A stretch of DNA of 32,343 nucleotides from Desulfosarcina sp. (GTDB lineage Bacteria > Desulfobacterota > Desulfobacteria > Desulfobacterales > Desulfosarcinaceae), in the NCBI GenBank assembly GCA_014237405.1, contig JABZFO010000072.1:1-32343 (forward strand). The letters run 5' to 3'. Below, piece after piece: positions 1-8,947 of the stretch (positions are counted from its first letter, which is position 1; every line of letters begins with the position of its first letter). Made by a program: the position numbers and the translations under genes. A model generated the notes under the pieces. That model saw only the letters and a program-made list of their open reading frames with translations. It was not told where the DNA came from and made no database searches.

Positions 1-1500
1 ATACTCCAGCCGATTCAACCCGTTGATGTAGGCCTTGGCGCTGGCGGTGATGATATCCGGGTCGGAGCCGCGGCCCAGGGCCATCAGGCCGTTTTCCCTC
101 AGGCGCACGGTCACTTCACCCTGAGCATCGGTGCCGCCGGTCAGGGCGCTGACGGTAAAGCGCAGCAGTTCGGCGCTGGCATTGGTCAACTGGGCGATGG
201 TGTTAAATGCCGAATCGATGGGGCCGTTGCCGTAGTTGGCGCCCTGAACGCTGCGGCCGTTGATGGAGAGCTTTACGCTGGCCATGGGCAGGACCGTGGT
301 GCCGCAGGTGACGTGCAGGTATTCCAGTGAGAAGACTTCGGCGGATCTGAGCACGCCTTCGGTGACCAGGGCTTCCAGGTCTTCGTCCATGACGTGCTTT
401 TTCTTGTCGGCCAGGGTTTTGAACTGTTTAAAGACAGTCTTCAGTTCATCTTCGGACAGGTCGTAGCCCAGACCTTTCAGGTGGGTATACAGGGCATGGC
501 GGCCCGAATGCTTGCCAAGGACCAGCTGGTTCCGGCTCAGACCGACCGTCTCCGGCTTCATAATCTCGTAGGTCATGGGGTTTTTCAGCATGCCGTCCTG
601 GTGAATGCCCGCTTCGTGGGCAAAGGCGTTGGCACCCACGATGGCCTTGTTTGGCTGGACCATGATGCCGGTGATCATGCTCACCAGGCGGCTGGTGGGA
701 TAGATGTGCTGCGTCTGGATGCCCGTTTCAAAGGGCATGAGGTTCTGGCGGGTGTGCAGGGCCATGATCACCTCTTCCAGGGAGGTGTTGCCCGCCCGCT
801 CGCCGATGCCGTTGATGGTCACTTCGGCCTGCCGGGCGCCGGCATTGATGGCGGCGATGGTGTTGGCCGTGGCCAGGCCCAGGTCGTTGTGGCAGTGGAC
901 GCTCAAGGTGGCCTTGTGCATGTTCGGGGTGTTGGCCATCACATATTTGACCATCTCCTCGAACTCCTGGGGGATAGCGTAGCCCACCGTGTCGGGCAGG
1001 TTGACCGTGGTGGCGCCGGCCTCGATGGCCGCTCCGAACACCTTGCACAGGTAGTCCCGGTCACTGCGGGAGCCGTCTTCGGAGGAAAACTCAACGTTGT
1101 CGGTGAGGCTCTTGGCGTACTTGACGGACTCTGCCGTTGCGTTGATCACTTCGTCCCGGGACATTTTCAGTTTGTAGTCCAGGTGGATGTCCGAGGTGGC
1201 GATGAAGGTGTGAATTCGGGGTTTCACTGCGTGCTGGATAGCGCCCCAGGCCTGATCGATATCGCTCTTATTGGCCCGCGCCAGGCCGGCAACTTCAGTG
1301 GTCTTCAGCCGTTTGGCGATTTCCGAAACCGCTTCGAAGTCCCCTTCGGAAGCGGCGGGGAAGCCCGCTTCGATTATATCTACGCCCAGCTTTTCCAGCT
1401 GAACCGCCAGCCGCAGCTTTTCAGGCGTGTTCATGCTGGCGCCGGGACTCTGTTCGCCGTCTCGCAGGGTGGTGTCGAATATTTTAACGCGCTCGTTCAT
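1..1500 (-). CDS. leuA: 2-isopropylmalate synthase, LeuA (3' end beyond window)
   Basis: Condenses acetyl-CoA with 2-oxoisovalerate, the first committed step of leucine synthesis, in the cytoplasm. 500 residues are visible; the family is usually about 510, so only the last few codons lie past the left edge. The N-terminus has the DTTLRDGEQSPG motif (residues 9-20) typical of LeuA. The TIM barrel continues with VHCHNDLG, the metal-binding HxH, and NGIGERAGN. The C-terminal regulatory domain, which binds leucine in known LeuA proteins, begins around residue 390. The ATG start at 1500 is preceded by AAAGGAG. It lies 33 bp downstream of cimA and is the last visible gene of the ilv operon. CimA and LeuA are homologous; DGEQSPG here versus DGTQGEN in the neighbour separates the two. 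Confidence 0.97.
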   Translation of the reverse strand, partial: MNERVKIFDTTLRDGEQSPGASMNTPEKLRLAVQLEKLGVDIIEAGFPAASEGDFEAVSEIAKRLKTTEVAGLARANKSDIDQAWGAIQHAVKPRIHTFIATSDIHLDYKLKMSRDEVINATAESVKYAKSLTDNVEFSSEDGSRSDRDYLCKVFGAAIEAGATTVNLPDTVGYAIPQEFEEMVKYVMANTPNMHKATLSVHCHNDLGLATANTIAAINAGARQAEVTINGIGERAGNTSLEEVIMALHTRQNLMPFETGIQTQHIYPTSRLVSMITGIMVQPNKAIVGANAFAHEAGIHQDGMLKNPMTYEIMKPETVGLSRNQLVLGKHSGRHALYTHLKGLGYDLSEDELKTVFKQFKTLADKKKHVMDEDLEALVTEGVLRSAEVFSLEYLHVTCGTTVLPMASVKLSINGRSVQGANYGNGPIDSAFNTIAQLTNASAELLRFTVSALTGGTDAQGEVTVRLRENGLMALGRGSDPDIITASAKAYINGLNRLEY

Positions 1501-1533: not shown

Positions 1534-3195
1534 TCATGCGCTGCACGACATGGACCACCCCAGTTTGAGATCTTCCGCCTTTCCGTTTTTGGATGGTTTG
1601 CGGCTTTGCTTGGCCTCCTTGGCCAGCTTGAACTGAAAGCTGTCCGCCAGAGCCTCCCAGCTGGCTTCGATGATGTCTTCGGAAACGCCGACGGTGCTCC
1701 AGATCTGGTCCTGGTCCCGAGACTCGATGAATACGCGGACCTTGGCTTCCGTACCGTCGCATCCGTCCACCACGCGTACCTTGAAGTCTACCAGCTGCAT
1801 GGTGTCCAGGTCCGGATAGAAGTTGCCCAGGGCTTTTCTCAGGGCGTTGTCCAGGGCGCTCACCGGGCCGAGGCCTTCGGCGGCGGTGATCTCGTGAGTG
1901 TCGCCCACCGAAATTTTAATGGTGGCATGGGCCGAGCAGGGAAAATTCTTGTCCTTTTCGATGGTCACCCGGAAGGATTCCAGATCGAACAATGGCTTGA
2001 ACTGTTCGGTGAACTTTTCGAGCATGATCTGAAAAGAACCGTCGGCCACGTCAAACTGGTAGCCTTCGTCTTCCATCTGTTTGATGGCGGCAACGATGGC
2101 CTTGCTGTCACATCCGTTGGCGCACAGGTTTACACCCATCTCCTTTGCCTTGTACTCCACGTTGCTCTTGCCGGCCAGGTCGGACATGAGCACCCGGCGC
2201 TGGTTGCCCACCAATTCCGGGTTTATGTGCTCGTAGGCCCGGGAGTCTTTCATGATGGCGCTCACGTGGATGCCGCCCTTGTGGGCGAATGCGCTGCGTC
2301 CCACGAAGGGGCGGGTGTTCAGCGGCACATTGTTGGCCGTCTCGCTCACGTACCGGGAGAGGCTTTTCAGGCCGCATAACTTTTTTTTTGGAATGCAGGG
2401 CCGGTTCATTTTGTCGCTGAGGATGGGGATGATGGTGGTCAGGTCGGCATTGCCGCAGCGCTCTCCGTACCCGTTGATGGTACCGTGAACCATGACGGCC
2501 CCGCAGTTGATGGCGGAGATGGCGTTGGCCGCGGCCATGCCGCAGTCGTTGTGGGTGTGGATGCCCAGCTTCAATTCTCGCCGGCTGCCGAACCGGCTTT
2601 TCAGGTTCTGGGTGACCGATTGGGTAATCGATTCCACTTCGTGGGGCAGGGTGCCGCCGTTGGTGTCGCACAGCACTATAAAATCGGCACCGGCCTCGAA
2701 AGCAGCCACGAGGGTGTTTACCGCGTAGTCGGGAGCGTCTTTGAAACCGTCGAAAAAATGTTCGGCGTCATAGATCACTTCCCGGCCGTTCGATTTAAGA
2801 AAGGCTACGCTGTCGGCGATCATGGCCAGGTTCTCCTCCAGGGTGTTGTCCATGATGGACTGCACATGAAGGGGCCAGCTCTTGCCGAATATGGCCGCCG
2901 CCGGCGTATCGCTGTTCAGAATCGCTTTCAGGTTGGGATCGTCGGCGGCATCGATGCCGGGCTTTCTGGTGGAGCCGAAGGCCGTGATCCGGGCAGACTT
3001 GAATCGCTCTCGCTTGGCCAGATCGAAAAAGCGGATGTCTCGGGGATTGGATCCGGGCCACCCGCCCTCGATGTAATGGATTCCCATCTCATCCAGCCGC
3101 ATGGCGATCTTCAGCTTCTCATCCGCCGTGAAGTTGATATTTTCTCCCTGGGTACCGTCTCTCAAGGTGGTGTCATAGATTAGGATCGGTTCCAT
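1534..3195 (-). CDS. cimA: (R)-citramalate synthase, CimA
   Basis: Condenses pyruvate with acetyl-CoA to citramalate, giving 2-oxobutyrate for isoleucine without threonine deaminase. The 553-residue protein has the LeuA-like TIM barrel with DTTLRDGTQGE at residues 8-18, the metal site GIHTHNDCG near residue 215 and NGYGERCGNADL. A C-terminal LeuA-type regulatory domain follows from about residue 400. The TQGEN variant and the EGGWPGSNP segment fit the long citramalate synthase subfamily rather than LeuA or homocitrate synthase. The ATG at 3195 follows AGGAG. It sits between ilvC and leuA in the operon. Substrate choice is assigned from family signatures, not from measured activity. Confidence 0.93.
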   Translation of the reverse strand: MEPILIYDTTLRDGTQGENINFTADEKLKIAMRLDEMGIHYIEGGWPGSNPRDIRFFDLAKRERFKSARITAFGSTRKPGIDAADDPNLKAILNSDTPAAAIFGKSWPLHVQSIMDNTLEENLAMIADSVAFLKSNGREVIYDAEHFFDGFKDAPDYAVNTLVAAFEAGADFIVLCDTNGGTLPHEVESITQSVTQNLKSRFGSRRELKLGIHTHNDCGMAAANAISAINCGAVMVHGTINGYGERCGNADLTTIIPILSDKMNRPCIPKKKLCGLKSLSRYVSETANNVPLNTRPFVGRSAFAHKGGIHVSAIMKDSRAYEHINPELVGNQRRVLMSDLAGKSNVEYKAKEMGVNLCANGCDSKAIVAAIKQMEDEGYQFDVADGSFQIMLEKFTEQFKPLFDLESFRVTIEKDKNFPCSAHATIKISVGDTHEITAAEGLGPVSALDNALRKALGNFYPDLDTMQLVDFKVRVVDGCDGTEAKVRVFIESRDQDQIWSTVGVSEDIIEASWEALADSFQFKLAKEAKQSRKPSKNGKAEDLKLGWSMSCSA

Positions 3196-3263: not shown

Positions 3264-4316
3264 TTATTTGCGCCGGTTTTCCGGTCGAAGAGAACGGACG
3301 GCGGCACCGGCCCGCCACATTTCCGAATCGTGGATGACCTTGAGTTCCGCATCCAGCTTCTCCCGGTAATCCGGAGCACTGTTACATTCCAGGGTCCGCC
3401 GGGTCTCTTCACCGGTGACAACGCTTTTGTAGAGCTTCTCAAATACAGGCGCCACGGCATCCCGGAAGCGGGGGGCCCAGTCCAGGGCGCCGCGCTGGGC
3501 AGTGGTGCTGCAGTTGGCGTACATCCAGTCCATGCCGTTCTGAGCCACCAGGCGAATCAGGCTCTGGGTCAACTCTTCCACGGTTTCGTTGAAGGCTTCG
3601 CTGGGGCTGTGGCCGTTTTTGCGCAGCATCGTGTACTGGGCCTCCATGACACCGGCCAAACATCCCATGAGCACACCGCGCTCACCGGTGAGGTCACTGT
3701 GGACCTCTTTTTCAAAGGTGGTGGGAAAGAGGTAGCCGGAACCGATGGCGATACCCAGGGCGATGGTGCGCTCCCTGGCCCGTCCGGTATAGTCCTGGTG
3801 AACGGCGAAGCTGGAGTTGATGCCGCTGCCGTCCAGAAAATTGGTGCGCACCGTGGTGCCGGAGCCCTTGGGCGCCGCCAGGATCACGTCCACATTTTCC
3901 GGGGGAACGATGTTGGTCTGATCCCGGTAAACGATGCCAAAGCCGTGGGAAAAGCACAGGGCGTCGCCTTTATTGAGGCATACTTTGATCTTGGGCCACA
4001 TGGCTACCTGGCCGGCATCGGACAGCAGAAACTGGACCATGGTGGCCTTTTTGGCAGCTTCCTCGATGGGAATCAGGGTCTCTCCGGGGACGAAGCCGTC
4101 GGCTACAGCCTTGTCCCAGGAAGCGGTGCCCTCCCGCTGACCCACGATCACCGCAATGCCGTTGTCGCGCATGTTCAGCGCCTGGCCCGGTCCCTGGACG
4201 CCGTAACCGAGCACGGCAACTGTTTCTTTCTCCAGCACCTCACGCGCCTGCTGGAGGGTAAATTCTTCTGAGGTGACCACTTCTTCAATCGTTCCGCCAA
4301 AATCGATATTTGCCAT
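3264..4316 (-). CDS. ilvC: Ketol-acid reductoisomerase, IlvC
   Basis: Converts acetolactate or acetohydroxybutyrate to the dihydroxy acids, using NAD(P)H and Mg2+. The 350-residue protein has an N-terminal Rossmann domain with GYGVQGPGQALNMRDNG and a VGQREG nucleotide loop. The helical knotted domain carries SDLTGERGVLMG and AFNETVEELTQSL. The ATG at 4316 is chosen because AAGGAG lies just upstream; a longer frame reaching 4337 has no such site. The sequence is unlike the common GYGSQGHAHALN form and closely recalls the KARI type I associate with Bacteroidetes, which suggests ancient transfer. It lies 108 bp downstream of ilvN, across a hairpin. Confidence 0.95.
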   Translation of the reverse strand: MANIDFGGTIEEVVTSEEFTLQQAREVLEKETVAVLGYGVQGPGQALNMRDNGIAVIVGQREGTASWDKAVADGFVPGETLIPIEEAAKKATMVQFLLSDAGQVAMWPKIKVCLNKGDALCFSHGFGIVYRDQTNIVPPENVDVILAAPKGSGTTVRTNFLDGSGINSSFAVHQDYTGRARERTIALGIAIGSGYLFPTTFEKEVHSDLTGERGVLMGCLAGVMEAQYTMLRKNGHSPSEAFNETVEELTQSLIRLVAQNGMDWMYANCSTTAQRGALDWAPRFRDAVAPVFEKLYKSVVTGEETRRTLECNSAPDYREKLDAELKVIHDSEMWRAGAAVRSLRPENRRK

Positions 4317-4393
4317 CCGGTACTCCTTGATTTGCATTTTAATTCCAGCAGGTTGGTAAATATTTCCTGCCGGATCGGTTTAATGGGACGACG

Positions 4394-4424: not shown

Positions 4425-4913
4425 TCAGTGGGGCTCCCTGAACAGGGCGATGGTGCCCGTTCGGGCGATTTTCTTGATGCCCATGGGTTTGAGCAGGTTG
4501 ACCAGGGCCTTCATTTTTTCTTCGGTCCCGGTCGCCTCGATGATGTAATACTCGGGCCCCACATCCACGACCTTGCATCTGAAAATGTCGACCATCCGCA
4601 GTATCTCGTCACGGTTTTCCAGTTTGGCCCGCACACAGATCAGCGCCATTTCCCGTTGAACCGATCCGGACCCGGTAAGGTCCCGGAGCTTGATCACATT
4701 AATGAGTTTTCGAAGCTGCTTTTCGATCTGTTCAACAAGCGGTTCATTGGCTTTGGTGACGATGGTGATCCGGGATACCTTGGGATCGATGGTTTCAGCC
4801 ACGCAGAGGCTTTCGATGTTAAATCCACGGCCGCTGAACAATCCGACGATCCGGGAAAGCACCCCGGGTTCATTGTCCACCAGCATGGTCAATATGTGTT
4901 TTTCTTCTGTCAT
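4425..4913 (-). CDS. ilvN: Acetolactate synthase small (regulatory) subunit, IlvN
   Basis: Regulatory partner of IlvB; it stimulates the catalytic subunit and in relatives mediates valine feedback inhibition. The 162-residue length is standard. An ACT domain occupies residues 5-80 (LVDNEPGVLSRIVGLFSGRGFNIESL), followed by DLTGSGSVQREM and the C-terminal regulatory domain typical of IlvH/IlvN. The ATG is at 4913 with a weak AGGGA upstream. In most operons ilvN directly follows ilvB; here 175 bp containing a large palindromic repeat separates them, so the two subunits may not be made in simple coupled ratio. Confidence 0.96.
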   Translation of the reverse strand: MTEEKHILTMLVDNEPGVLSRIVGLFSGRGFNIESLCVAETIDPKVSRITIVTKANEPLVEQIEKQLRKLINVIKLRDLTGSGSVQREMALICVRAKLENRDEILRMVDIFRCKVVDVGPEYYIIEATGTEEKMKALVNLLKPMGIKKIARTGTIALFREPH

Positions 4914-5088: not shown

Positions 5089-6774
5089 CTAGACCAGCAG
5101 CATTTCCGTAATGGGTGCCCCGGCCGGTACCATGGGATACACGCCCTCTTCCTTGGTCACCCTGAAATCCATGATCACCGGGCCGGGCGTTTCAAGCCCC
5201 TGGCGCAGGACGTCTTCCACCTCCTCCGGCCGGGTGGCCCGCAGTCCCACGGCACCAAAGGCCTCGGCCAGCTTTACGAAATCGGGCGCATGATCCATGC
5301 AAGTACAGGCATACCGCTTATCGTAAAACAATTCCTGCCACTGGCGCACCATGCCCAAGTAGCAGTTGTTCAGGATCACCACCTTGACCGGCAGTTTGTA
5401 CTGCACGGCGGTGGCCATTTCCTGGATGTTCATCTGAATGCTGCCGTCTCCGGCCACGTCCACCACCAGGGCATCGGGAAAGGCTACCTGGGCGCCGATG
5501 GCCGCCGGCAGCCCGAAACCCATGGTGCCCAGACCGCCGGAGGTGACAAAATGCCCCGGACGGTCGAAATGATAAAACTGGGCCGCCCACATCTGGTTCT
5601 GACCTACCTCCGTGGTGATGATGGCCTCACCCCGGGTCAGTTCGTAGAGCTTCTCTACTACATATTGAGGCTTGATCTCCTCCTCCTGAGTATACGCCAG
5701 CTTGAAATTCTGCTTCCACTGTTCGATCTGATCCAGCCAGGGGCCCCGGTTTGCCGTCAGTTTCTCCAGGTCCTCTTCCGCCAGGTAATTGTTGATCACT
5801 TCCAGGCTGCTTTTGCAGTCACCCACCACGGGAATGCTCACCGGTACGTTTTTACGAATCGATGTGGGGTCGATGTCGATGTGAACGATCTCGGCCTGGG
5901 CCGCAAAGCAGTCGGTTTTGCCGGTCACACGATCGTCAAAGCGGACGCCGATGCCGATGAGCAGGTCGCATTTGCCGGTGCTCATATTGGCCCGGTAAGT
6001 GCCATGCATACCGATCATCCCCAATGATAGGGGGTCGGAACCGGGAAAGCCGCCAAGTCCCATGAGCGACATGGTCACCGGAATCTTGGTGCTGCGGGCC
6101 AGTTTGGTCAGTTCCTCGGCCCCCTTGGAAAGAATCACCCCACCGCCGGCAAAAATCATCGGGCGTTTGGCCGTCATGATCAGATCCACCACCTTACGCA
6201 GTTGCTTCGAATTGGGCTTGTAGGTGGGGTTGTAGGACTTGAGCTTGACTTTCTGTTTGGGTTTGAAGTTGGTCGTGGCCTGCTGCACGTTCTTGGGGAT
6301 GTCAACCAGCACCGGCCCCGGACGGCCGGAGCGGGCAATGTGAAATGCTTCTTTCAGAATCCGGGGAAGCTCCTCCACTGATGGCACCAGATAGTTGTGT
6401 TTGGTGCAGGGGCGGGTAATGCCGACGATGTCCACCTCCTGGAAGGCATCGTTGCCGATGAGGTGGGTGGGCACCTGGCCGCTGATGATCACCATGGGAA
6501 TGGAGTCCATATAGGCGGTGGCCACGCCGGTAACGGCATTGGTGGCACCCGGCCCGGAGGTGACCAGACAGACGCCGACTTTGCCGGTGACGCGGGCATA
6601 ACCGTCGGCCGCATGCACCGCACCCTGTTCATGGCGCACCAGGTAGTGGCGGAGATCGGTTTTTTCCAGGTTGTCGTGAATATCGATGGTGGCGCCGCCG
6701 GGAAACCCGAAAATGGAATTCACGCCCTCTTCCTTGAGAACTTCCATGAGAATCTGCGCTCCGGTGAGTTTCAT
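5089..6774 (-). CDS. ilvB: Acetolactate synthase large (catalytic) subunit, IlvB
   Basis: ThDP-dependent enzyme that makes acetolactate or acetohydroxybutyrate from pyruvate. The 561-residue protein has the N-terminal PYR domain with the catalytic Glu in VRHEQGAVHAADGYAR and a central FAD/DHAP-like domain with GVRFDDRVTGK. The C-terminal PP domain has the GDG...NN cofactor motif (GDGSIQMN ... VVILNN). The ATG at 6774 is preferred because AAGGAG lies 9 nt upstream; an in-frame GTG at 6801 has no ribosome site. Downstream, palindromic element A separates it from ilvN. Upstream, a 7-bp-period array fills the gap after ilvD. Confidence 0.97.
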   Translation of the reverse strand: MKLTGAQILMEVLKEEGVNSIFGFPGGATIDIHDNLEKTDLRHYLVRHEQGAVHAADGYARVTGKVGVCLVTSGPGATNAVTGVATAYMDSIPMVIISGQVPTHLIGNDAFQEVDIVGITRPCTKHNYLVPSVEELPRILKEAFHIARSGRPGPVLVDIPKNVQQATTNFKPKQKVKLKSYNPTYKPNSKQLRKVVDLIMTAKRPMIFAGGGVILSKGAEELTKLARSTKIPVTMSLMGLGGFPGSDPLSLGMIGMHGTYRANMSTGKCDLLIGIGVRFDDRVTGKTDCFAAQAEIVHIDIDPTSIRKNVPVSIPVVGDCKSSLEVINNYLAEEDLEKLTANRGPWLDQIEQWKQNFKLAYTQEEEIKPQYVVEKLYELTRGEAIITTEVGQNQMWAAQFYHFDRPGHFVTSGGLGTMGFGLPAAIGAQVAFPDALVVDVAGDGSIQMNIQEMATAVQYKLPVKVVILNNCYLGMVRQWQELFYDKRYACTCMDHAPDFVKLAEAFGAVGLRATRPEEVEDVLRQGLETPGPVIMDFRVTKEEGVYPMVPAGAPITEMLLV

Positions 6775-6807
6775 TTTCTTGTGCTCCTTTTCTTGTGGCA
6801 CTCTGAT

Positions 6808-6872: not shown

Positions 6873-8492
6873 TTACCGCACCACCGCCCCTTGGCTGGCC
6901 GACGAAACCTGCCGGGCGTATCGGGCCAGGTACCCATGGCGGATTTTCGGTTCCGGTGCCTGCCAGTCGGCCATGCGCTGATTGATTTCGTCATCGGGCA
7001 CCTTCAGGGAGACTGTTTTTGCAGGGATATCGATGGCGATACGGTCTCCCTCTTTTACCATGGCAATGGGGCCGCCCCGGGCCGCTTCCGGCGAGATGTG
7101 GCCGATGGCCGCCCCCCGGGATCCGCCGGAAAAGCGGCCGTCGGTAATCAAAGCCACGTGAGCGTCCAGCCCCATGCCGGCGATGGCCGATGTGGGGGTG
7201 AGCATTTCTCGCATGCCCGGTCCGCCCATGGGACCTTCGTAGCGTACGATGACTACATCTCCCTTGTTGATGCGGCCCTCCATGATGGCGGCAGTAGCCG
7301 TCTCTTCAGAATCGAAGACCCTGGCCGGACCTTCATGGCGCATCATTTTATCGAGAACGGCCGACTGTTTGACCACGCATCCATCCGGCGCCAGGTTGCC
7401 GTAGAGAACCGCCAGCCCTCCCTGCTGGTGGTAGGGGCGGTCCAGGGGCCGTATCACCTCGGGGTCAAGGGTAAAGACCCCGGAGGTGTTTTCGGCGATG
7501 GTGTTACCGGTGACGGTCAGGCAATCGGTATTGATCAATCCTGCAGTCGACAGTCCTTTGAGGACGGCGCTGATGCCGCCGGCCCGGTTCAGATCCTGGA
7601 TGTGGTGCTCGCCGCCGGGGCTCAGGGAGCAGATGTGAGGCGTCTTTTCACTGATTTCGTTGATTCTGTTCAAGTTCAGGTCTACGCCGGCCTCTGTGGC
7701 AATGGCCGGCAGGTGCAGCACCGTGTTGGTGGAACACCCCAGGGCCATGTCGACGGTCAGGGCGTTGTGAAACGCCTCAGGAGTCATGATCTGTCTGGCG
7801 GTGATCTGTTTCTCCCACAGGTTCAAGATTTGAATGCCGGCCTGCTTGGCCAGGCGAACACGGGCGGAGTAGACGGCCGGGATGGTGCCATTTCCCGGCA
7901 GGCCCATGCCGATCACTTCGGTCAGGCAGTTCATGGAGTTGGCAGTGAACATGCCGGCACAGGAGCCGCAGGTGGGGCAGGCGGCATCTTCGATGGCCGC
8001 CAGCGTGGAGGCTTCCATTTTGCCGGCTTTTACGGCGCCGACTGCTTCAAAAACGGTAATCAGGTCGATTTTCCGGCCGAGCGTTTCAGGGTGCTCTCCG
8101 GCCAGCATGGGGCCGCCGCTGATGAAGATGGTAGGCAGATCCAGCCGCGCGGCGGCCATGAGCATGCCCGGTACGATCTTGTCGCAGTTGGGGATCATAA
8201 CCATAGCGTCCAGGGCATGGCCGGTGGCCATCACTTCAATGGAGTCGGCAATGAGTTCGCGGCTGGCCAGGGAGTATTTCATGCCGGTGTGATTCATGGC
8301 GATGCCGTCGCATACACCGATGGTTCCGAACTCGACCGGTGTACCGCCGGCCATATAGATCCCGGCCTTTACCGCCTGGGCGATGGTGTCCAGGTGAACA
8401 TGACCGGGGATGGCGGTATTGACGGCATTGGCGATACCGATCAGCGGCCGCTCAATTTCCGCCCTTTCTGAAACCTGAATTGAGCATCGCAA
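6873..8492 (-). CDS. ilvD: Dihydroxy-acid dehydratase, IlvD (N-terminus atypical or truncated)
   Basis: Iron-sulfur dehydratase converting dihydroxy acids to 2-oxo acids in Val/Ile synthesis. The body is intact: [10 protein letters not shown] at about residues 13-22, [21 protein letters not shown], the cluster and metal segment [20 protein letters not shown], and [11 protein letters not shown]. The usual first ~30 residues, with the RAPHRSLL-type motif, are missing. The frame opens with only about a dozen unrelated residues and is about 17 residues shorter than relatives. The only start in frame is TTG at 8492, with no clear ribosome site. An 8-bp inverted repeat (8472-8479 / 8505-8512) flanks this start. 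The gene follows the attenuator directly. Activity of this copy is uncertain. Confidence 0.88.
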
Positions 8493-8521
8493 AAAAACGC
8501 TCGGTTCAGGTTAAGGAGCCC

Positions 8522-8562
8522 AAAAAAAATCCGTTATCACCTCTGGGGTGATAACGGATTTT
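8522..8562 (-). terminator. Rho-independent terminator (attenuator) of the ilv operon
   Basis: On the minus strand a perfect 16-bp stem (8547-8562 with 8526-8541, loop 8542-8546) is followed by an unbroken run of eight U residues (8522-8529, partly inside the stem). It lies between the branched-chain leader peptide and ilvD, so it is placed to stop transcription before the structural genes. Confidence 0.93.
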
Positions 8563-8600
8563 GTGTTTTCCGGTGTTGGCTGTTTTAGGCCATTATCGCC
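8547..8600 (-). promoter_or_regulatory. Antiterminator pairing that competes with the ilv attenuator
   Basis: The RNA of 8590-8600, reading GGCGAUAAUGG, can pair with CCGUUAUCACC of the first terminator arm (8547-8557): nine Watson-Crick pairs, one G-U and one mismatch. The 8590-8600 segment lies in the last codons of the leader ORF. A ribosome finishing the leader would mask it, whereas one stalled at upstream Ile/Leu/Val codons would leave it free. The pairing is seen in the sequence; the regulatory outcome is inferred. Confidence 0.75.
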
Positions 8601-8686
8601 CCCGTTTCCTCGTCGTGGATCAGGACCCCCACTACGAGGATAAGAATAAGACCAAGAATGTTGATAAGGGCGAAACGGATATTCAT
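8585..8686 (-). CDS. Branched-chain amino acid leader peptide (33 aa)
   Basis: A short frame starts at ATG 8686 with GGAG about 10 nt upstream and stops with TAA at 8585. Sixteen of its 33 residues are Ile, Leu or Val. Residues 7-23 read LINILGLILILVVGVLI, of which 14 of 17 are branched-chain. It ends 22 nt before the terminator hairpin that precedes ilvD. This is the arrangement of ilv and leu leader peptides in enterobacteria, where scarcity of charged tRNA stalls the ribosome and lets transcription continue. A small membrane peptide could look similar, but the position and the competing RNA pairings favour a leader. It is not an obvious sequence homologue of E. coli IlvL. Confidence 0.85.
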   Translation of the reverse strand: MNIRFALINILGLILILVVGVLIHDEETGAIMA

Positions 8687-8718
8687 ACTTTTGTCACTCC
8701 AATTTGATATAGTTTCAC

Positions 8719-8746
8719 CCCTAACAGCACACTATAGGCAAGTCAA
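8719..8746 (-). promoter_or_regulatory. Possible promoter of the ilv operon
   Basis: On the minus strand TTGACT (8741-8746) is a good -35 box. The best -10 at 16 nt spacing, TTAGGG (8719-8724), is poor. It lies 33 bp upstream of the leader ATG, a plausible distance. The -35 box is the only convincing part. Confidence 0.3.
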
Positions 8747-8804
8747 GCTTTTTCTTGCCTTTGGGCCAACACACCGTTAAGGTGAATGAAATATGCACGC
8801 ATCA

Positions 8805-8947
8805 GTGTCCATTCAGAAATGGTGGATTGTGGTTCAGACCAAGGCCGCAGCGATTTGGAAACCGCAGGCGTAGCAGCGCTACGTCGAGGATTTCCAAATC
8901 GTGAGAACGCAGAGCTGGGCCGCAAGATGCCATTTATAGACGGACAC
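8805..8947 (+). repeat. Nested palindromic element E (143 bp)
   Basis: Terminal GTGTCC/GGACAC repeats extend into imperfect arms of about 32 bp that match the arms of elements C and D. Inside is the pair CGATTTGGAAA / TTTCCAAATCG around AGGCGTAGC...GCTACG, flanked by the family motifs CAAGGCCGC and GAACGCAGA. It ends directly before the yqgE ribosome site and is the most diverged copy. Confidence 0.75.

Follow-up and report, generated by a model that had tools for sequence, protein, structure and literature searches.

Upstream of a six-gene branched-chain operon of a Desulfosarcina sp., ilvD-ilvB-ilvH-ilvC-cimA-leuA, we found an element that is very probably a classical ribosome-mediated attenuator. 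It lies on the minus strand of the window, the whole stretch of 32,343 nucleotides that was analysed, where comparison of sequences bears out the leader, the terminator and the antiterminator, while ribosome stalling, termination and the physiological signal are what we infer from this anatomy. If Ile-, Leu- or Val-tRNA became scarce, the ribosome would stall in the Ile/Leu/Val run of the leader and cover segment A, leaving segment C free for segment D, so that no terminator would form and the polymerase would read on into the operon. If charged tRNA were plentiful, the ribosome would reach the stop codon at C and mask it, and D would pair with segment E to give the terminator; in an untranslated leader, A:C would form and termination would also be allowed. 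The RNA switch would thus probably turn the operon off when Ile, Val and Leu are plentiful. It is a new family of a well-known switch type, wide in the lineage and coherent with its genes.

The leader ORF occupies 8585..8686 of the minus strand, with its ATG at 8686 and its stop ending at 8585, and encodes the peptide MNIRFALINILGLILILVVGVLIHDEETGAIMA, in which Ile, Leu and Val make up 16 of 33 residues and 14 of the 17 residues from 7 to 23. The preliminary description had given the same composition, and translation bore it out. An ORF of 15 to 50 codons with at least 16 Ile/Leu/Val codons also arose in 133 of 5000 dinucleotide shuffles of the intergenic region, and therefore the unusual part of the leader is its dense run and not its total: 14 Ile/Leu/Val within 17 residues appeared in none of 5000 such shuffles, and only one of the 1058 small ORFs of the window, the leader itself, reached this density.

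Upstream of the ORF there is a promoter-like region (8718..8746, minus strand), composed of TTGACT at 8746-8741 and, after 17 nucleotides, TAGGGG at 8723-8718, the second hexamer being assigned by eye; a promoter consensus scan listed no site at this TTGACT on the minus strand. TTGACA or TTGACT was found 25-110 nucleotides upstream of the leader ATG in all 28 order members with enough sequence (that of L029 was too short), and therefore transcription probably starts upstream of the terminator hairpin. Between this promoter region and a divergent gene of the AlgH/YqgE family, the window also carries an imperfect 24-nucleotide inverted repeat (8851-8901; 79%) with a 3-nucleotide loop.

The intrinsic terminator (D:E; 8522..8562, minus strand) consists of a 16-bp stem and a U tract. 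Its arms, 8562-8547 and 8541-8526, are 16 nucleotides each and 100% complementary, so the perfect stem with U8 reported beforehand stands, with the detail that four of the eight T lie in the stem. Pairing and covariation define the two strands of the antiterminator, segment C (8590..8601, minus strand), which is followed by the leader stop, and segment D (8546..8557, minus strand), which can partner either C or E. The pairing of the leader end with the first terminator arm had been put at 9+1 of 11 positions, and we recovered exactly this, with nine Watson-Crick pairs, one G-U pair and one mismatch between 8600-8590 and 8557-8547. Taken as 12-mers, C and D of the window pair at 11 of 12 positions, a value reached by none of 200 shuffles.

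Comparison among relatives supported both pairings. In an alignment of 29 sequences (A1), 95.3% of the terminator cells were paired, with 21 cells of two-sided change against 8.0 in shuffles, and the three terminator pairs with two-sided changes did not rise above shuffles (427/500); such counts are not probabilities, here or below, since the sequences are related and kinship inflates shuffle tests. For C:D in the same 29 sequences, 91.5% of cells were paired and five pairs showed two-sided changes (0/500 shuffles). A second alignment of 53 elements (A4) gave 96.6% paired cells for the terminator (0/500 shuffles as high), with two-sided changes in 8 of 14 pairs (1/500), and 87.6% for C:D (0/500 as high), with two-sided changes in 9 of 14 pairs (9/500), 52 cells of two-sided change against 19.5 +/- 3.3 in shuffles (0/500) and 26 further pair types against 18.8 (0/500). 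When the partner strand was slid by 1-3 columns in A4, paired cells fell to at most 54% for terminator and antiterminator alike.

The antiterminator was also recovered in an alignment-free test on 87 rows, in which C was taken as the best window and chosen likewise in the shuffles. At least 10 of 12 positions of C:D paired in 78 rows and fewer than 10 in nine; in 76 of the 87 the own pairing was matched by no more than 10 of 200 shuffles, and in 81 of the 87 C paired better with its own D than with the average of the differing D segments of the others. The set omits places already among the first 30 loci (L001-L030) and L043, a weak match about 1.8 kb before ilvD, and it also omits, for no sound reason, the good match L148, which shares 109 of 146 bases with L135; the duplicate L123, identical to L015, was kept in the 87 rows and removed to give 86 distinct elements, and L026, which has no element, is in neither set. 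Since C:D and D:E both covary on the common D strand, the antiterminator would exclude the terminator by strand sharing. The stem core, CCGTTATC/GATAACGG, is nearly constant across much of the phylum sample.

Each of the 86 distinct elements carries a leader whose residues are 36-61% Ile/Leu/Val. The leader stop begins -6 to +17 nucleotides from the start of C, and in 47 of the 86 it begins within C. Because the leader finder selects for Ile/Leu/Val richness and for a stop near C, it was run on 1720 shuffled copies as a control, of which 751 gave no ORF and 48 gave an ORF of at least 21 residues with at least 35.7% Ile/Leu/Val. The preliminary description had pictured relatives that keep the hairpin and lack the leader ORF or the competing pairing; we found instead that leader, antiterminator and terminator are kept together, with compensatory changes, in support of the attenuator reading it proposed. 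The first gene after the 86 elements is ilvD in 55, cimA in 20, ilvB in 7 and leuA in 3, with one contig end.

Codon choice sets the leaders apart from the genes, whose codons were taken in the true reading frame in this test as in that of hairpin P. Among Leu codons of the genus, CTG accounts for 5% of 66 leader codons compared with 61% of 481 gene codons, and CTT for 59% and 8% of the same sets. In the rest of the class CTG makes up 4% of 239 leader codons versus 43% of 1881 gene codons, and outside the class the CTG bias is small (28% of 141 leader codons, 34% of 708 gene codons). In the Salmonella leu attenuator, a change of the CUA control codons to CUG reduced sensitivity, as described in the available text of PMC1183508. 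Demands of pairing may also shape the leader codons. The idea that control codons are matched to the first gene was rejected, given that leaders ahead of cimA and of ilvD show no difference in Ile share (p = 0.94 with the three leuA cases counted as cimA, p = 0.28 without them). Leaders ahead of cimA hold a smaller share of Val than those ahead of ilvD (p = 5e-5), but lineage and first gene are confounded here.

These data also bear on the alternative that the 33-residue ORF encodes a real small membrane protein and the hairpin is a plain terminator, with no switch at all. The peptide has the hydrophobicity needed for a single membrane helix, and its conservation in the genus is good; across classes, however, it is Ile/Leu/Val richness that is kept rather than sequence, the leader stop tracks segment C, the antiterminator covaries with the terminator strand, and the leaders of the class have a codon preference of their own. 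We therefore consider a membrane protein behind a simple terminator highly improbable.

Two further elements of the attenuator have moderate support. Segment A (8667..8678, minus strand), in the early leader, is likely to form a protector pairing with C. Compared with synonymous recodings, 26 of 29 leaders deviate as expected (mean z -1.39, standard error 0.19), L018, L022 and L029 being those in the wrong direction; the window leader is matched by 11 of 500 recodings, and 11 of the 29 leaders stand at 25/500 or below. Covariation of A:C is weak, with 70.9% of cells paired (10/500 shuffles as high), a covariation score reached by 88/500 and two-sided pairs matched by 60/500, and one of the slid versions surpasses it in two-sided cells (14 against 10). 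Inside the leader ORF, hairpin P (8607..8640, minus strand) is likely a pause hairpin, one that is not universal among relatives. Its cells are 81.0% paired (7/500 shuffles), with two-sided changes in 6 of 9 pairs (16/500), compared with 8 two-sided pairs when slid by +3. The coding parts of the leaders fold better than their recodings in 65 of 85 cases (mean z -0.98, 27 of them below -1.64) and no better in the other 20.

To describe the distribution of the element, we searched 60 genomes, own genome included, and found IlvD matches in 57. Among the matches listed, 29 of 30 ilvD loci, the window included, have an Ile/Leu/Val-rich leader and a terminator core common to all 29; the remaining one, L026 (G047:C310), has ilvD without an attenuator directly upstream, yet that genome holds two matches of the covariance model R1. 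The closest IlvD proteins among named records belong to Desulfobacteraceae UBA2771 (90%), Desulfatitalea alkaliphila (77%) and DS_bin_10 (74%), which would place the organism in or near the Desulfobacterales; the element also occurs in D. alkaliphila (L041), a cultured relative. R1, built from 28 ilvD-upstream elements and applied with a cut-off of E up to 0.01, matched 326 of 389 genomes drawn from the class, including 189 of 201 good assemblies and 132 of 148 genera, and gave no match in 63 of the 389. In 44 loci of the order, a sample biased to high scores and overlapping the first 30 loci, the downstream gene is ilvD in 37 and ilvB in 6, with one contig end.

In 395 genomes of the phylum R1 matched 42, with 15 from the own order and 27 from outside the class, and all 25 of the first-examined matches outside the class precede cimA (20), leuA (3), ilvD (1) or ilvB (1). 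A second model, R2, built from 53 elements, matched 63 of the 395, 48 of them outside the own order. Twenty further R2 places comprised 10 before cimA, 4 before ilvB, 1 before an acyl-CoA dehydrogenase gene and 5 with no branched-chain gene downstream; these five (L242, L243, L252, L253 and L254), whose leaders hold 9-29% Ile/Leu/Val, were rejected as false positives, and therefore R2 gives false positives at weak scores. Poor leaders were also seen in three of the 14 places before cimA or ilvB, namely L240 (27%), L241 (29%) and L245 (19%). A weak R2 match on contig C56, considered as a second element of the own genome, was discarded, with no branched-chain gene or leader within the 701 bases examined.

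Two single loci may be recorded here. At L236 (G690:C70) an attenuator with a good, Ile-rich leader precedes the acyl-CoA dehydrogenase gene, whose best NCBIfam match, acryloyl-CoA reductase, falls below the cut-off. L108 (2700-3010) has an Ile/Leu/Val-rich leader and a terminator before ilvD with a wholly different stem (CCCCTTCC/GGAAGGGG), at an R1 E-value of 0.0036.

Eight genomes carry copies before two operons, with cimA and ilvB operons each headed by a copy in G421, G565, G740, G758 and G760, and cimA and leuA operons in G590, G632 and G690; among these copies, the leaders of L240 and L241 are poor. We lean towards the view that a single family of homologous attenuators has kept its place ahead of branched-chain operons, both in the window's class of Desulfobacterota and beyond it, as the first gene changed among ilvD, ilvB, cimA and leuA, that in at least eight genomes the regulon would be built by RNA copies and not by a protein regulator, and that the stem would be nearly frozen because one motif serves A:C, C:D, D:E and the leader stop. 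Attenuation looks usual ahead of Ile/Val/Leu genes in this anaerobic class, which counts named sulfate reducers among its members. It has relatives elsewhere in the phylum, also ahead of cimA, whose product opens the pyruvate route to isoleucine. This leads one to expect codon-level sensing in organisms about whose regulation little is known. The element also makes a strongly covarying candidate RNA family, and its occurrences form a natural series of one switch ahead of different first genes.

In the window itself, the operon downstream of the leader runs on the minus strand through ilvD (6873..8492), ilvB (5089..6801), ilvH (4425..4913), ilvC (3264..4337), cimA (1534..3195) and leuA (1..1500, running off the contig). 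The six-gene branched-chain operon including cimA that had been described beforehand was confirmed, but that account overlooked a truncation of ilvD, from which the start codon and some 26 N-terminal codons are missing. This stretch is present in all 29 other loci compared (six of them in detail), and the searches of the own genome, a draft of 201 contigs, gave no other good match to it and no match to a second IlvD. Adjoining the loss (8463-8512) there is a 41-bp palindromic, MITE-like insertion between the terminator and ilvD (8472..8512), with related copies at other places of the genome; the palindrome contains an in-frame TTG (8492). A dispersed family to which the palindrome is related has AACCTGAA..TTCAGGTT-like, CCTGAATTGAGC-type inverted ends; in the own genome this family has copies on C133 (165 bp), C121 (68 bp) and C70 (62 bp) and single ends elsewhere, and G002 has relatives. 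Loci of this repeat family are L258, L262 and L263, with partial ones at L256, L257, L259 and L261; of all these, L261 and L262 at least are closely followed by an ATG.

It is accordingly possible, though we hold it to be the less probable state, that the attenuator is real in relatives and that this copy alone is decoupled or decaying, a palindromic insertion and a deletion having removed the start of ilvD; this would be compatible with attenuation. The absence of the ilvD start codon and N-terminus, and of a second copy of either the missing stretch or ilvD among the genome's matches, speak for such decay, whereas the leader, the pairings and the terminator are undamaged, the rest of ilvD is open with the in-frame TTG left, and a draft of 201 contigs may contain a fault of assembly or of strain mixture. 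The missing part precedes the Pfam domains of IlvD. The palindrome itself is less likely to be an assembly fault, given that its family has other members in the own genome; such a fault could still account for the missing ilvD start. The copy in the window may control a first gene that is damaged, unless the draft assembly is in error at the start of ilvD.

A structured RNA before a biosynthetic operon might also be a metabolite riboswitch or a tRNA-binding T-box that overlaps a short ORF by chance. T-boxes control ilv genes in other organisms. With the curated cut-offs of Rfam 15, a collection in which ilvB-OMG is a family, the window matched only RNase P and a tRNA, both elsewhere, and ten relatives matched no family; loosening the threshold to E up to 5 across 8440-8760 brought up nothing but miRNA and CRISPR-repeat models, far below their cut-offs. 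Leaders of the riboswitch and T-box kind do control ilv genes elsewhere, and ppGpp riboswitches are mentioned in this role in the available text of PMC10272879, but here no T-box, riboswitch or other Rfam family was matched, the conserved structure is the hairpin set expected of an attenuator, and the leader ORF accompanies 86 of 86 elements. A riboswitch or T-box in place of attenuation is thus very unlikely.

The available text of PMC545781, on delta-proteobacterial regulons, contains no mention of ilv, leu, branched or leader peptide, and in that of PMC11109978 the sole Desulfo- mention is a gcsH motif. The suggestion that an attenuator of this kind might be undescribed in the lineage holds within the reach of our search, which returned no Rfam match and, in the literature covered, no description in these bacteria; subscription papers lay outside it, and such an account may exist elsewhere. 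There are comparative surveys of proteobacterial attenuators.

Among known RNAs before ilv genes, the ilvD motif WRC-18-2 shares with our element a structured RNA before ilvD, in some cases with a terminator, but the available text of PMC8632094 places it in Veillonella only, as a weak riboswitch candidate, and mentions no leader peptide there. The ilvB-II motif of Corynebacterium, tested by reporters, resembles it more fully, with a branched-chain-rich uORF, a terminator and an antiterminator before an ilv gene; unlike the element described here, it is reported, in the part of PMC10272879 available, only in Corynebacterium, with another structural model and only before ilvB. In the same text, the ilvB-OMG and ilvB motifs have uORFs before ilvB that abound in branched-chain and threonine codons, for which attenuation was suggested (PMC10272879). 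No Rfam family matched our element, which would set it apart from these two.

Enterobacterial operons with attenuators include ilvGMEDA, ilvBN and leu. Peptide-leader attenuation of ilv and leu genes is best known from this group and a few Gram-positives, as partly covered by PMC1183508 and PMC10272879. As in our element, the enterobacterial attenuators combine a leader peptide rich in the regulated amino acids, a choice of control codons, alternative pairings and a terminator before the first structural gene (available text of PMC1183508). The likeness seen is one of architecture. In contrast to them, the first gene here is ilvD, ilvB, cimA or leuA, and the stem core of our family hardly varies in a large part of the phylum sample.
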